NCBI GenBank assembly: GCA_021741905.1
Contig: JAIOWZ010000001.1
Location: 1-64,000 of the forward strand
DNA from: Candidatus Planktophila sp.
Lineage (GTDB): Bacteria; Actinomycetota; Actinomycetes; Nanopelagicales; Nanopelagicaceae
DNA: 64,000 nucleotides
Reading direction: 5' to 3'
Part shown: one piece after another, positions 16,471-27,404 of the stretch
How the letters are laid out: every line of letters begins with the position of its first letter
Numbering within the stretch: the first letter of the stretch is position 1
Position numbers and translations under genes: made by a program
Notes under the pieces: model-generated
Seen by the model: only the letters and a program-made list of their open reading frames with translations
What the model was told of the DNA's origin: nothing
The model's database searches: none

Positions 16471-17559
16471 ATGAAGATTTCGCCCCTTAATCAAAAGCAT
16501 CTCGACCTGAACGCCAAAATGGCCGACTTTGGTGGATGGATGATGCCCATTGAGTACCCAGGCGCAGGCGTATTAGCCGAGCATGCTGCTGTTCGTGAGC
16601 GTGTAGGAATTTTTGATGTTTCCCATTTGGGTAAAGCCTCAGTTACAGGAGTCGGAGCTCTAGCCTTCTTGAACCAATGCCTGACAAATGATCTAACAAA
16701 GATTCAGGATGGCTCTGCTCAGTACACATTGCTGTGCACCCCGCAAGGTGGGGTAGTAGATGACCTGATCGCGTATCGAAATAGTGAAACAGATTTCTTC
16801 CTTGTACCAAACGCTTCTAACACCACCGATGTGGTCGCTGTTTTGCAAAAGCAGGCACCATCTGAAATAACAGTAACAAATCTGCATAATGATTACGCAG
16901 TATTAGCGGTGCAGGGTCCATTGGCTCCACAAGTTCTTGCTGCTCTTGGAATAAGTACAGATATTGATTACATGGCATTTGCACATGTCAATATTGCAGG
17001 TGCTGATGTGATTTTGTGTCGCACCGGATACACAGGCGAGCTCGGGTATGAGTTACTTCCACACACTAAAGATGCAGTTGCGGTGTGGGATGCATTGGTC
17101 GCTGCGATCACTCCGCTTGATGGATTGATCTGCGGACTGGGTGCACGCGACACATTGCGTACCGAAATGGGATATCCATTACACGGTCATGAATTATCTC
17201 TAGGCATATCACCAGTTGAAGCCAGTGCCTCATGGGCTGTTGGTTGGAAGAAGGAGTCATTTATTGGCTCAGACGTATTACTTTCCCAAAAGGGTGGATC
17301 AGTAGAGCGCAAGAGCGTTGCCATCAAATCACTTGATCGCGGAATCCCACGAGCAGGAATGAGTGTTAAGAACTCTAAGGGTGACGTGGTTGGGGAAGTA
17401 ACGAGTGGAACATTTTCCCCAACACTTAAACACGGAATAGCTTTGGCTTTACTCTCAAAGGATGTTGCAGTTGGGGATGAATTAATAGTTGATGTGCGTG
17501 GACGTGATTCACTCTGTGAAGTGGTCAAACTTCCTTTTGTGACTTCACGCGTCCGCTAA
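16471..17559 (+). CDS. gcvT: Glycine cleavage system aminomethyltransferase (T protein)
   Basis: 362 aa GcvT; RTGYTGELGYEL; ATG preceded by TAGGTT-N6. Confidence 0.93.
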   Translation: MKISPLNQKHLDLNAKMADFGGWMMPIEYPGAGVLAEHAAVRERVGIFDVSHLGKASVTGVGALAFLNQCLTNDLTKIQDGSAQYTLLCTPQGGVVDDLIAYRNSETDFFLVPNASNTTDVVAVLQKQAPSEITVTNLHNDYAVLAVQGPLAPQVLAALGISTDIDYMAFAHVNIAGADVILCRTGYTGELGYELLPHTKDAVAVWDALVAAITPLDGLICGLGARDTLRTEMGYPLHGHELSLGISPVEASASWAVGWKKESFIGSDVLLSQKGGSVERKSVAIKSLDRGIPRAGMSVKNSKGDVVGEVTSGTFSPTLKHGIALALLSKDVAVGDELIVDVRGRDSLCEVVKLPFVTSRVR

Positions 17560-18337
17560 AAACAACTGGAGTTGAGAAAGCCGCTCGTGTATAGGCGCGG
17601 CGAAGTGCGGATAAAACCGATGGACCAGTAAAGGCAATTAATGCGCAGGTAAAGACTGCTCGTGGTATGTCCCAGGCCATCGCGCTAGCAAAGTGGAATG
17701 TGATGAACCGGCCGAAGTTTTCAGATAGTGAGCCGCCAGGAATGTAGGAGAGCTGGGTATTGCCTCCTAACGCCCATGGCCAAAACTGTAGATCCATGAG
17801 GACTCCAAAAGTTCCAGCAGCCAGTGCGCCAAAGACTAAAAGCATTGCGATTTCGCTTTTGCCTGAAACCTTTTTTGGTAACAATCCTGCGGCCATACCT
17901 ATCCAGGCAGCGGCAAACATTTGATAGCCAAGCCAAGGTCCAAGGCCACCGGTTAGTAACGCTGATGCAAACATGGAAATAATGCCGAGCAGAAATCCAA
18001 ATGATGCTCCAAATACGCGCGCACTCAAAATCAAAACAAACCACATTGGTTCAATTCCGACGGCGCCTGCTCCTAGTGGTCGAAGCGCAGAAATGAGCGC
18101 TGCTAAAACACCCAATAATGCAACAGATTTAGCATCTAATCGGGCAGATGAAATTTCAAAGATGACTAATATAAATGCAGCGATAATTGCGATCCAAGAG
18201 AATAACTGCGTTCGAGGTAAGTCCTGACCTGCATAGAAAAATGGCCAGATGAAACCAGCAATACTAAATAGAGATGCGATGAACAGAACTAAGGAGTTCT
18301 TTGCAGTAAATCTAATGACTCCATCTGTCAGCATCAT
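17525..18337 (-). CDS. ECF transporter substrate-specific (S) component, probable cobalamin
   Basis: Polytopic 270 aa with ECF S-like ALISALRPLGAGAVGIEPMWFVLILSARVFGASFGFLLG; same operon as EcfA/EcfT downstream of a cobalamin riboswitch. Confidence 0.78.
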   Translation of the reverse strand: MMLTDGVIRFTAKNSLVLFIASLFSIAGFIWPFFYAGQDLPRTQLFSWIAIIAAFILVIFEISSARLDAKSVALLGVLAALISALRPLGAGAVGIEPMWFVLILSARVFGASFGFLLGIISMFASALLTGGLGPWLGYQMFAAAWIGMAAGLLPKKVSGKSEIAMLLVFGALAAGTFGVLMDLQFWPWALGGNTQLSYIPGGSLSENFGRFITFHFASAMAWDIPRAVFTCALIAFTGPSVLSALRRAYTRAAFSTPVVFSGRVKSQKEV

Positions 18338-19941
18338 TTGTGGGCCTGGATCGCTGCAACTACATCTGAAACCTTCAACCAGGGCTGTGGCGACATAACC
18401 TTTGAAACTTGTGGCGCAAAGGCAGGAGAAGATAGAAGCACATCAAGTGTTGTCCCATCGGCAACAATGTCACCGTCGGCAAGAAACATAACTCTTGTGG
18501 CCAATTCAGCCACTAGCTCAACATCATGAGTTGCTAGGACAACGCACTTTCTGGTTGCTTGAGCAAACTCAATAAGAATTCTTGTTAGCTCTTTTTTGGC
18601 TTGATAATCAAGCCCACGTGTTGGTTCATCCAGAATTAACACACCAGGATTTGATGATAAAACAATGCTTAAGGCAAGGCCTAGCCTTTGACCTTCTGAT
18701 AAATCACGTGGGTGAGTTGTGGGCAATACTCCTGGAACAAGTTGTTGCAGTATCTGAGCAGTAGTTCCGTTAGGCATTTGATTGTCTTTATCAGCCTGAT
18801 CACACTCAATCTGTACGCTTTGGCCATACAAAAGATCACTTGGCTCTTGCGGGATAAATCCAATCGTGGATCTGCGTTCCTTGCCTTTGAGGTTTTGCGG
18901 ATTAAAGCCAGAGACATCTACAAAACCAGTTGCCAAATGCGAAATGCCAGCCAGGGATTTAAGAAGTGAGCTTTTGCCAGCACCATTTCGTCCCATAATT
19001 GCAACGATTTCATTACTAGCGATGGTCGCACTCAAAGATTTCAGAGCCGGCTTTCCGTCATATGTCACAGAAAGATCGCTGACCTTAATAATTGTTTCTC
19101 CATTTTGCCTTGGAGCTGCATCCTTTTCAATATATTCTTTGCCCCGAATATCTGCCGTCATTCGACGCATTTCGCGAACTGATACTCCAATTTCTTTTAA
19201 ACCCAAGGCTCGTGCCAAATGAACGATTGGGGGAGCAATGGGCGAATGCAGCAAGATGTCTTCAGGTGTACCAACCTGGGCAACACCTGCGCCATTGATG
19301 TGAACGATGCGGTCAGCAAATTGAATTACTCGCTCTAGCTTATGTTCTGCAATAACGACGGTAAGACTTAAGTCATGTACTAATCGATGCAAAATTGATA
19401 GGACTTCTTCAGCAGCGATGGGATCTAGCGCGCTAGTGGGCTCATCCAAAACTAACACCTTTGGATGTGCGACCAATGCCGAGCCAATCGCAACACGTTG
19501 TTGTTCTCCGCCGCTGAGTGTGGCAATAGATCGATCGCGCAAGGGCGCGAGACTTAACAGATCAAGGACTTCTTCAACCCTTTTGCGCATAACATCGTTT
19601 GGAAGATTTAAGGTCTCCATACCAAAGGCCAACTCTTCTTCAACGGTGTCTGCTACAAAGCCATTGGCAGGGTTTTGACCAACAATTCCAATTAGATGTG
19701 CCATGCCACCAGGCTTAACCAGCTGAGTTGAGCTACCGTCAACACTGACATCGCCAGCCAGGATTCCACCTGTGTGGTGGGGGACTAAACCGTTGATCAA
19801 ACGCAAAAGTGAAGATTTACCAGAACCTGTTGGACCAATGACCAGGACCATTTCGCCCTCTGCAATTTCAAGGTTCAAGTTTTCTAGAACTGTAGTTGTT
19901 GAGTTTGGATAAATCAGAGAAACATTTGAAAATTTAATCAT
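18334..19941 (-). CDS. ECF transporter duplicated ATPase (two ABC domains)
   Basis: Two Walker A (GPTGSGKSSLL, GRNGAGKSSLL) and two signature regions (LSGGEQQR, LSEGQRLG); ATG at 19941 rather than ORF start 19998. Confidence 0.92.
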   Translation of the reverse strand: MIKFSNVSLIYPNSTTTVLENLNLEIAEGEMVLVIGPTGSGKSSLLRLINGLVPHHTGGILAGDVSVDGSSTQLVKPGGMAHLIGIVGQNPANGFVADTVEEELAFGMETLNLPNDVMRKRVEEVLDLLSLAPLRDRSIATLSGGEQQRVAIGSALVAHPKVLVLDEPTSALDPIAAEEVLSILHRLVHDLSLTVVIAEHKLERVIQFADRIVHINGAGVAQVGTPEDILLHSPIAPPIVHLARALGLKEIGVSVREMRRMTADIRGKEYIEKDAAPRQNGETIIKVSDLSVTYDGKPALKSLSATIASNEIVAIMGRNGAGKSSLLKSLAGISHLATGFVDVSGFNPQNLKGKERRSTIGFIPQEPSDLLYGQSVQIECDQADKDNQMPNGTTAQILQQLVPGVLPTTHPRDLSEGQRLGLALSIVLSSNPGVLILDEPTRGLDYQAKKELTRILIEFAQATRKCVVLATHDVELVAELATRVMFLADGDIVADGTTLDVLLSSPAFAPQVSKVMSPQPWLKVSDVVAAIQAHK

Positions 19942-20684
19942 GACAAACCGAGCACAATCAGTGCGGTGCATACGACTGCGGAGTCTGCAGCTCGCCATTT
20001 GATGGGGCGATATCTAGAACGTTTTTTGTTAACGCCGTAACCGCGACTATCCATCGCAGCTGCTAGATCCAAGGAGCGAGCAAGAGATTCCTCAAGGAGA
20101 GGAATTGCAACTCTTCGCCACGAAGTAAAACCACGCAAAGATTGACCTCGCAGTTTTTGTGCCTGGCGGATACGAGAAACCGAACTAACTAGTTGCGGTA
20201 GGACTGAAGTTGCAATAACTATTGAGATACCAAATTCATAAATGTAGACCGGAAGTACTCGTAGCAAGCGGTGGGGGCTTGTCAATGAGGCAGCAGCGCC
20301 AAAGATGACGATGATCGCACAAATCAAAATACCTTCAGTTAGGGCCGATGTTAAGCGCTCTGCAGTAACTGTTCCACCTATTCGGATACCTGGCATCCAG
20401 CTAGGTAAAGGAAGTATCGGAAGTGTAAAAAGTGTTGTGCCGGGAATTGGCACACCTATCAACACACCAATACATGTTCTAACAAGCAAAATCCATGCAG
20501 ATAACTTCAGAGTCCAATTAAAGCTTTTGCCCCATGGGGCGTTCTCGCGATTGATGAAAACGACAACTGCAACTGCACCCACGCAACAGATAGTGAATAC
20601 GGTGTTATCGAAACGAATGACCGCTATGGCCAATCCGATCGCCCATATCCACCAAGTCAGTGGGTGCAGAGACAGTTTTTTCAT
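19938..20684 (-). CDS. ECF transporter transmembrane (T) component, CbiQ-like
   Basis: 248 aa membrane protein with coupling segments RIRQAQKLRGQSL and LAAAMDSRGYG; ATGA overlap with EcfA. Confidence 0.88.
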   Translation of the reverse strand: MKKLSLHPLTWWIWAIGLAIAVIRFDNTVFTICCVGAVAVVVFINRENAPWGKSFNWTLKLSAWILLVRTCIGVLIGVPIPGTTLFTLPILPLPSWMPGIRIGGTVTAERLTSALTEGILICAIIVIFGAAASLTSPHRLLRVLPVYIYEFGISIVIATSVLPQLVSSVSRIRQAQKLRGQSLRGFTSWRRVAIPLLEESLARSLDLAAAMDSRGYGVNKKRSRYRPIKWRAADSAVVCTALIVLGLS

Positions 20685-20687
20685 TAA

Positions 20688-21209
20688 CTATTTTTTGATA
20701 AGTGATTTAGGAGTTGGTATTTCCACACCACACTCTTTTGCTGGATAACCAGCTAATCCGCAGATAAGTCCTGAACTTGCAGCACGAATCTTTGTCACTT
20801 GTCCCAGCACATCGATGCCCTGGGATTCCTTTGCCACTCGAACACAGGTTGTAATCGTCTTCCTAACCTTTTCACCCTTGGGTGCATATGCCGAAGATCC
20901 GAAGTCAATTACTAATCCAATTCGCTTGGTGTCCTTGTCAGCTTTCACGCCGGCGCAGATACTTTTGAAATCAGGCTTTACGCGTGGCAGGACAGATGGA
21001 ATGTCATCTGAGCTAAACACAAATGACCAACCTTCAACAGAGCCATCGGCGATATCCACTGTTGGTCCTGTCATTGCAGCAGTCCAGACAGTTTTACCTG
21101 GGGCTGCTTGGAAATATCCCCAGTAGCGCCAACCTTTTTCGGCAGCTTGCGCGGAAGGGGTAACGAATGTGGAGATAAGAATTATTGCCAATACTATTTT
21201 GAACTTCAT
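20688..21209 (-). CDS. Secreted SCO2322-like protein of unknown function
   Basis: Signal peptide MKFKIVLAIILISTFVTPSAQAA followed by EKGWRYWGYFQAAPGKTVWTAAMTGPTVDIADGSVEGWSFVFSS; first gene after the riboswitch. Confidence 0.7.
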   Translation of the reverse strand: MKFKIVLAIILISTFVTPSAQAAEKGWRYWGYFQAAPGKTVWTAAMTGPTVDIADGSVEGWSFVFSSDDIPSVLPRVKPDFKSICAGVKADKDTKRIGLVIDFGSSAYAPKGEKVRKTITTCVRVAKESQGIDVLGQVTKIRAASSGLICGLAGYPAKECGVEIPTPKSLIKK

Positions 21210-21337
21210 TGCTGTGGGGCCTCTCGAATATGAAAGAGTCTCACAGGGAGTGAACCGCACAACGATAGGAAGGATTAATCCACACATCTTGTGTTAGGAG
21301 CACACCCCGCAAACCTCGGCGGGTGTTTGTCTCATCT

Positions 21338-21451
21338 GCACTTGTTAGGTAATCCGACTTAACTCTTGTTTGAAAAATGAATCTTCAATATCAGGAATCT
21401 TACGGTTGCGGGTCAGCGTCGGATTTTCACCGAACTTCCCCTACCAAGTGA
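21338..21451 (-). promoter_or_regulatory. Cobalamin riboswitch aptamer
   Basis: On minus strand: GGGAAGTTCGGTGAAAATCCGACGCTGACCCGCAACCGTAAG core (B12-box) and AGTCGGATTACCT; closing helix CACTTGGTAGG/CCTAACAAGTG with 10 of 11 pairs. Confidence 0.93.
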
Positions 21452-21528
21452 GCTATTAAGTTGTAGGCGAACCAAACCACAGAGCTTTCGGGTTGGCAAC
21501 TAGGCGCGCTAGTCATAGGGTTATGGGC

Positions 21529-26999: not shown

Positions 27000-27404
27000 A
27001 TGAAAGCCTCTTGGAAACTATTTGGTGGTTTAGCAGTCTTCTATGCCATTGTCACTGTTGTTTATGTCCTGATTGGTGGAGAACCTCTAGGCGTTAGCGG
27101 ATTGCTTTTGTCGGCTTGCTTGGCAGGAATGATTGGATTTTATGTCTGGTTTACTCAAAAGCGGATTGGTGTAGAACTTCCTGAAGATAATCTCACAGCT
27201 GAAATTTCAGATGGTGCTGGCGAATTGGGTTTCTATAGTCCACATTCCTGGTGGCCTCTACCAGTCGCACTCAGTGCCTGCACACTCGGTCTCGGATTGT
27301 TAATCGGATGGTGGCTCTCTCTCATTGGTCTCGGGGCGTTAATGATCTCGGTCATCGGCATGGTGACTGAATATGAAAAGCCTACGACCTCTTCAGCGCA
27401 CTAA
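27000..27404 (+). CDS. ctaF: Actinobacterial cytochrome c oxidase subunit IV
   Basis: 134 aa four-TM protein after ctaD; SPHSWWPLPVALS. Confidence 0.85.
   Translation: MKASWKLFGGLAVFYAIVTVVYVLIGGEPLGVSGLLLSACLAGMIGFYVWFTQKRIGVELPEDNLTAEISDGAGELGFYSPHSWWPLPVALSACTLGLGLLIGWWLSLIGLGALMISVIGMVTEYEKPTTSSAH

Follow-up and report, generated by a model that had tools for sequence, protein, structure and literature searches.

To our knowledge, vitamin importers of the energy-coupling factor (ECF) class are taught as working without an extracytoplasmic binding protein, the substrate being bound by the S component alone. In the ATP-binding cassette (ABC) type importer BtuFCD, an extracytoplasmic corrinoid-binding protein stands ahead of the transporter. 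Here we analyze a 64,000-nucleotide stretch of Candidatus Planktophila sp. DNA (contig JAIOWZ010000001.1, positions 1 to 64,000; ‘the window’), whose minus strand carries an ECF operon that follows an adenosylcobalamin (AdoCbl) riboswitch and is headed by a secreted protein of the SCO2322 family. The role proposed for this protein resembles the arrangement in BtuFCD, the fold and the ABC class being unrelated. We consider it probable that the operon serves vitamin B12 uptake in a B12-requiring freshwater actinobacterium and that its first product is a secreted corrinoid-capture subunit of the importer. The SCO2322 protein is a circular permutation of the secreted domain which heads the same operon across the Actinobacteriota.

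The closest described proteins belong to the SLBB superfamily. Burroughs et al. (2007, PMC1796856) defined this superfamily, noted toroid fusions and CbiO/CbiQ-like operons, and proposed a function in B12 scavenging; the SLBB clade was found mainly in low-GC Gram-positives and planctomycetes. Like SLBB/DUF4430 (PF14478) proteins, the SCO2322 protein is a secreted domain, probably of beta-grasp type, often accompanied by a toroid and encoded beside CbiO/CbiQ-like transporter genes. Unlike them, it is permuted, diverges too far to be matched by the Pfam model, has conserved cysteines of its own and is led by a riboswitch, and in the window's family it stands alone, with neither toroid nor anchor. 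The actinobacterial operon also reproduces the design of animal transcobalamin and intrinsic factor, an alpha toroid with a C-terminal beta-grasp domain. In contrast to these, the window protein comprises the beta part only, in permuted form and with a weak half-domain structural match, and the toroid is closer to terpene cyclases.

Two transporter systems are also relevant. In ECF-CbrT of Lactobacillus delbrueckii, the S component CbrT is itself a high-affinity B12 binder and the ECF module is shared with other S components (eLife 2018, PMC5997447). The window operon is likewise an ECF-type importer, and the CbrT cluster also has nrdJ and pduO; however, the window's operon is a dedicated one that includes a secreted protein, and its EcfS shows no detectable homology to solved S components. 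Kang et al. (2017, PMC5301498) interpreted an ECF module located behind cobalamin/AdoCbl riboswitches in freshwater acI genomes as a putative cobalamin transporter. This module very likely corresponds to the window's operon in other acI strains, although the relevant passages of that account do not discuss the secreted first gene. A literature search on SCO2322 found no paper. The association of SLBB domains with CbiO/CbiQ operons (PMC1796856) and, from the relevant passages of PMC5301498, the acI riboswitch–ECF module are thus already known. As far as the literature consulted shows, the new elements are the circular permutation, the placement of SCO2322 in the SLBB class, the phylum-wide operon whose toroid is either a separate gene or fused, and, in the Nanopelagicaceae, a form that has neither toroid nor anchor.

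Circular permutation of the secreted domain

The secreted protein and the two halves of its domain occupy the following positions:

20688–21209, minus strand: SCO2322-family secreted protein, 173 amino acids (NF040672, AF2 model)
20937–21137, minus strand: N-half of the SCO2322 domain, residues 25–91, corresponding to the canonical domain's C-terminal part
20715–20936, minus strand: C-half of the SCO2322 domain, residues 92–165, corresponding to the canonical domain's N-terminal part

The protein matches NF040672 (SCO2322_fam) with 158.6 bits (cut-off 85) over profile positions 3–143 of 144. A Peptidase_S49_N match (E 0.16) was dismissed as noise. A Sec signal peptide can be read by eye (MKFKIVLAIILISTFVTPSAQA, with cleavage before AE), and the protein has neither a lipobox cysteine nor a C-terminal anchor. 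Four cysteines are conserved (C85, C122, C150 and C160). The N-half follows the pattern RYWGY..W..GP...DGxVEGWxF...PR..F..IC and the C-half KRxxLVIDFG...C....G.dVL....GLxCGxxGYPAKECG.

In distant Actinobacteriota, partial matches to the SCO2322 model correspond to secreted proteins which contain the two halves in reverse order. A profile of 41 SCO2322 sequences was compared by hhalign with a profile of 17 canonical-order sequences. In natural order the alignment scored 97.6 over 59 columns, and with the halves swapped 164.2 over 122 columns. Taken alone, the N-half mapped to columns 88–146 of the canonical profile (score 95.0) and the C-half to columns 16–84 (score 68.3). The permuted sequences do not form a single clade on the EcfA tree; a single origin of the permutation is not rejected (approximately unbiased test, p-AU 0.18), yet this is no positive demonstration of it. 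One Streptomyces-like genome (G171, loci L039 and L061) has two such ECF operons, one with a permuted protein and a toroid and the other with a canonical-order protein.

Probable kinship with transcobalamin and the toroid partner

For profile–profile comparison, a DUF4430 profile was built from 30 sequences gathered by PF14478 from the phylum. The canonical domain scored 28.7 over 102 collinear columns (null maximum 17.5 in 60 column shuffles), and the C-half of SCO2322 scored 26.6 against a null maximum of 15.2. At the sequence level, DUF4430/SLBB kinship is well supported, and SCO2322 appears to be a permuted relative of the transcobalamin-C/SLBB domain. The protein lacks the element order of the SLBB domain since its halves are swapped; for this reason, and because HMMER gives no match, it is filed as a permuted relative and not as a DUF4430 member.

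The AF2 model of the window protein has a pLDDT (per-residue confidence) of 90 and a predicted template modeling score (pTM) of 0.82. A second-look structural aligner ranked the transcobalamin entries 7qbg, 2v3n and 2bb6 as the top three among 528 chains. The superposition involves the C-half only, as the permutation predicts: model residues 91–163 lie on transcobalamin residues 308/313–374/379, with 59 residues aligned at 2.4–2.5 Å. The corresponding Z scores of 2.6–2.8 are below 3, inside the floor for common arrangements, and the match therefore supports the kinship and does not prove it.

At one locus (L066, G040:C203), the operon with the canonical-order beta gene also contains a PF14478 DUF4430 gene, placed between riboswitch and toroid, which suggests two beta-type domains in one system. 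A further DUF4430 match (G107:C8:26603-26728) lies away from the SCO2322 operon; it shares its strand with another cobalamin riboswitch match (27247-27369) and is located about 500 nucleotides downstream of it.

Of the 40 phylum loci, 30 encode a secreted alpha/alpha-toroid protein, as a rule between the riboswitch and the beta gene. At three loci, the toroid protein has a canonical beta domain built in (E about 1e-20). By analogy, toroid and beta domain, as two genes or fused, would correspond to the two-domain architecture of transcobalamin. Against the PDB, the toroid model best matches terpene cyclases (Z about 22), and transcobalamin was not found among the matches listed. A cyclase role is unlikely because the toroid is secreted, is anchored in Streptomyces and mostly lacks DxDD. 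Given the terpene cyclase fold match, gene context and fusion are the grounds for its putative B12 role.

No toroid was found at the loci of the window's clade (L102–L155, L158), and the window's genome gave just one unconvincing match (E 0.01), so that the two-domain, transcobalamin-type arrangement was not found there. In an anchor scan, a C-terminal membrane anchor was detected in Streptomyces and in the early-branching loci L154 and L155, and it is gone in the rest of the window's family. On the midpoint-rooted EcfA tree, the toroid-less rows form one clade (18 rows, support 100/100), which makes toroid loss by streamlining the simplest reading; on the same simplest reading, the window's family lost both the toroid partner and the membrane anchor.

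Operon, riboswitch and B12 demand

On the minus strand of the window, the riboswitch is followed by the SCO2322-family gene, EcfT, a double EcfA and EcfS:

21298–21464, minus strand: AdoCbl (cobalamin) riboswitch aptamer, RF01482 (Rfam covariance model and leaders of relatives)
21207–21297, minus strand: expression platform (leader conservation and folding)
19938–20684, minus strand: EcfT, CbiQ-type transmembrane coupling protein, 248 amino acids (PF02361, 38.1 bits)
18334–19941, minus strand: EcfA-EcfA' double-ATPase protein, 535 amino acids (two ABC_tran stretches, TIGR04520)
17525–18337, minus strand: EcfS, putative corrinoid-specific S component, 270 amino acids (PF07155, 25.6 bits)

A first-pass annotation, made from the letters alone, had described these five elements in this order, with an SCO2322-like first gene and a nearly gapless layout. 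All of them are found by Rfam, Pfam and NCBIfam matches, and no gap between genes exceeds 3 nucleotides: SCO2322 and EcfT are 3 nucleotides apart, and EcfT/EcfA and EcfA/EcfS each overlap by 4. The annotation had noted a visible aptamer core and had named the lack of an Rfam cobalamin match as a refuting condition; the leader has such a match with a significant E value, and orthologous leaders exceed the gathering threshold. The annotated span of 21330–21460 was too short, as the aptamer begins at 21464 and extends to about 21298. The EcfA start is placed at 19941 (a longer listed reading frame from 19998 would overlap EcfT). A gene for the glycine cleavage T protein GcvT (16471–17559, plus strand) is convergent with the operon, its overlap with the 3′ end of EcfS being 35 nucleotides. 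Among 79 named relatives, 50 have a GcvT homologue close to the operon, as do three distant loci.

When cmscan was applied to the leader only, RF01482 matched positions 21298–21464 of the minus strand over the full model length (1–149) with 48.1 bits and E 4.8e-8. This score is 1.9 bits below the gathering threshold of 50, which is why the default scan of the window missed it. RF00174 (Cobalamin) reached 29.4 bits (cut-off 31.5), the sole cobalamin riboswitch match in the window's genome. Leaders in the corresponding position of close relatives exceed gathering thresholds, namely for AdoCbl (L111, L124, L135), AdoCbl-II (L105, L107, L117) and Cobalamin (L149). The aptamer core GGGAAGTTCGGTGAAAATCCGACGCTGACCCGCAACCGTAA ... 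AAGTCGGATTACCT is followed by the kissing-loop hairpin P13 from position 21325, and core and P13 are near-invariant across 18 aligned leaders. No compensatory changes were found in the consensus fold of these 18 leaders; covariation adds no support for the riboswitch because the leaders are too conserved.

The expression platform contains a Shine-Dalgarno stretch, GAGAGG (21225–21220), before the ATG at 21209. A conserved element, CCCTGTGAGACTC (about 21236–21250), has two potential, alternative pairing partners, the P13 3′ arm and the Shine-Dalgarno stretch; in the consensus fold of the 18 leaders it pairs with the P13 arm. Folding of the window platform gave −35.8 kcal/mol with P13 enforced and −35.9 kcal/mol without. 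Judged from its sequence, the leader fits a translational OFF switch, in which the ligand would stabilize P13 and free the anti-Shine-Dalgarno element. When adenosylcobalamin is scarce, the riboswitch would leave the Shine-Dalgarno stretch free and the operon would be translated.

The core of an ECF module, EcfT with paired EcfA ATPases, is present. EcfT matches PF02361 (CbiQ; cut-off 25), and the best NCBIfam match of EcfA, with its two ABC_tran stretches, is the ECF ATPase TIGR04520 (314.2 bits, cut-off 315). EcfS is slightly below the cut-off of 26.7 for PF07155 (ECF-ribofla_trS), and an orthologue is found at the same position in nearly all loci. The window's genome further encodes the class II, B12-dependent NrdJ (610.7 bits, over the cut-off), MetH and a PduO adenosyltransferase. 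Two PduO-type matches have equal length and similar score (G000:C2:3511-4017 and G000:C23:41532-42038) and are either paralogues or an assembly duplication. In the relevant parts of PMC5301498, acI genomes with the ECF module behind cobalamin riboswitches are read as lacking a B12 pathway.

Distribution and proposed function

The distribution survey covered 121 genomes of the freshwater acI/Nanopelagicales, the order to which the window belongs, and a phylum-wide draw of 296. In the order, SCO2322 is present in 78 genomes and the EcfS orthologue in 77; both occur together in 76, SCO2322 alone in two and EcfS alone in one. The corresponding Fisher p of 6e-29 ignores kinship and overstates the association because related genomes are not independent. 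The secreted family is thus found almost solely at the ECF locus (one gene occurs without the other in three genomes), so that the second refuting condition of the first-pass annotation, a family located mostly elsewhere, does not apply. Loci fetched via SCO2322 alone from named genomes show the order SCO2322-EcfT-EcfA-EcfS wherever the contig is long enough. Phylum-wide, 44 of the 296 genomes have matches to the SCO2322 model, mostly partial. EcfT-EcfA-EcfS follows the gene on the same strand at 37 of 40 loci, complete or as far as the contig reaches; the other three loci lie on short contigs. At 34 of the 40, a same-strand cobalamin riboswitch is found no more than 6 kb upstream. Six loci (L129, L130, L136, L140, L152 and L153) lie on contigs of metagenome-assembled genomes titled Bifidobacterium breve or Streptomyces griseus; their operons are Nanopelagicaceae-like and the titles look wrong.

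The first-pass annotation had proposed a capture or chaperone subunit within a variant B12 salvage system. The system is indeed a variant, though a phylum-wide one and not specific to the window, and the general idea was published in 2007 (PMC1796856). The capture proposal gains a homology argument from the permuted relative of the transcobalamin-C/SLBB (DUF4430) domain; corrinoid binding by SCO2322 and hand-over to EcfS are inferred from this homology, the riboswitch control and the strict co-occurrence. The first product would be a secreted beta-grasp domain of the SLBB/transcobalamin-C type, its halves swapped by circular permutation, that captures the corrinoid on the outer side of the membrane and delivers it to EcfS. 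EcfT and the tandem ATPase EcfA would then drive the corrinoid inward from EcfS, and PduO would adenosylate it for NrdJ; MetH would also use it. In most relatives, the alpha/alpha-toroid protein may share this work as in transcobalamin, the streamlined Nanopelagicaceae retaining the beta part only. We see about an even chance for the more specific view that a single permuted beta-grasp domain, with a bacterial transcobalamin's beta half as its ancestor, became a free-standing secreted capture subunit of the ECF importer after loss of toroid and anchor.

Several observations weigh against corrinoid capture by this protein. The N-half of SCO2322 alone gave no DUF4430 signal in the profile–profile comparison, and HMMER found no Pfam DUF4430 or PDB match for either SCO2322 or the canonical domain. 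Foldseek returned nothing below E 2.6 for the SCO2322 model, which the permuted chain order leads one to expect and which is no proof of permutation, and the Z scores of the transcobalamin matches are low. No sequence link of EcfS to CbrT or any solved S component was detected, so that cobalamin as the substrate rests on the riboswitch and the genome context. Furthermore, without a toroid the beta domain retains only a portion of the binding site of transcobalamin, and its binding could be weak or absent. This last point, together with the loss of the C-terminal anchor and the almost invariable retention of the beta gene with EcfS, as for an obligate subunit, would also suit a structural or assembly subunit of SLBB descent that no longer binds corrinoid and instead docks, stabilizes EcfS or links the importer to the cell wall. 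We hold this unlikely: strict riboswitch control and a secreted domain of this type suit capture at least equally, and the YW, DG and GYP motifs are retained in the alignment of toroid-less members.

Less probable still, the operon imports another corrinoid or a fragment (cobinamide, pseudocobalamin or a lower-ligand base), with specificity set by the beta domain. The lack of a detectable relation between EcfS and the B12-specific CbrT would allow for this, riboswitch control tells only that the end product matters, and known B12 importers of the ECF and ABC types also take cobinamide (PMC5997447). However, PduO is present, and a complete corrinoid is the simplest need of acI genomes that, in the relevant passages of PMC5301498, are read as lacking the pathway. 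That the gene encodes a conserved small secreted protein which rides along in a B12-ECF operon of known type and plays no particular part in capture seems very improbable to us. SCO2322 is a named NCBI family, and the acI module is already reported in those passages; retention at the operon head throughout the phylum, permutation onto a domain resembling B12 binders and the partner toroid nevertheless favor a specific function.

The family is a natural example of circular permutation in which unpermuted homologues occupy the same position of the operon. If corrinoid capture by the secreted protein is correct, a minimal extracytoplasmic binder would be added to the ECF class, in the form of a phylum-wide, riboswitch-controlled secreted partner, and the SCO2322 family, so far known by a placeholder name only, would gain a function. 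It would also show the two-part B12 clamp reduced to one small domain in bacteria that rank among the most abundant in freshwater and rely on others for B12.

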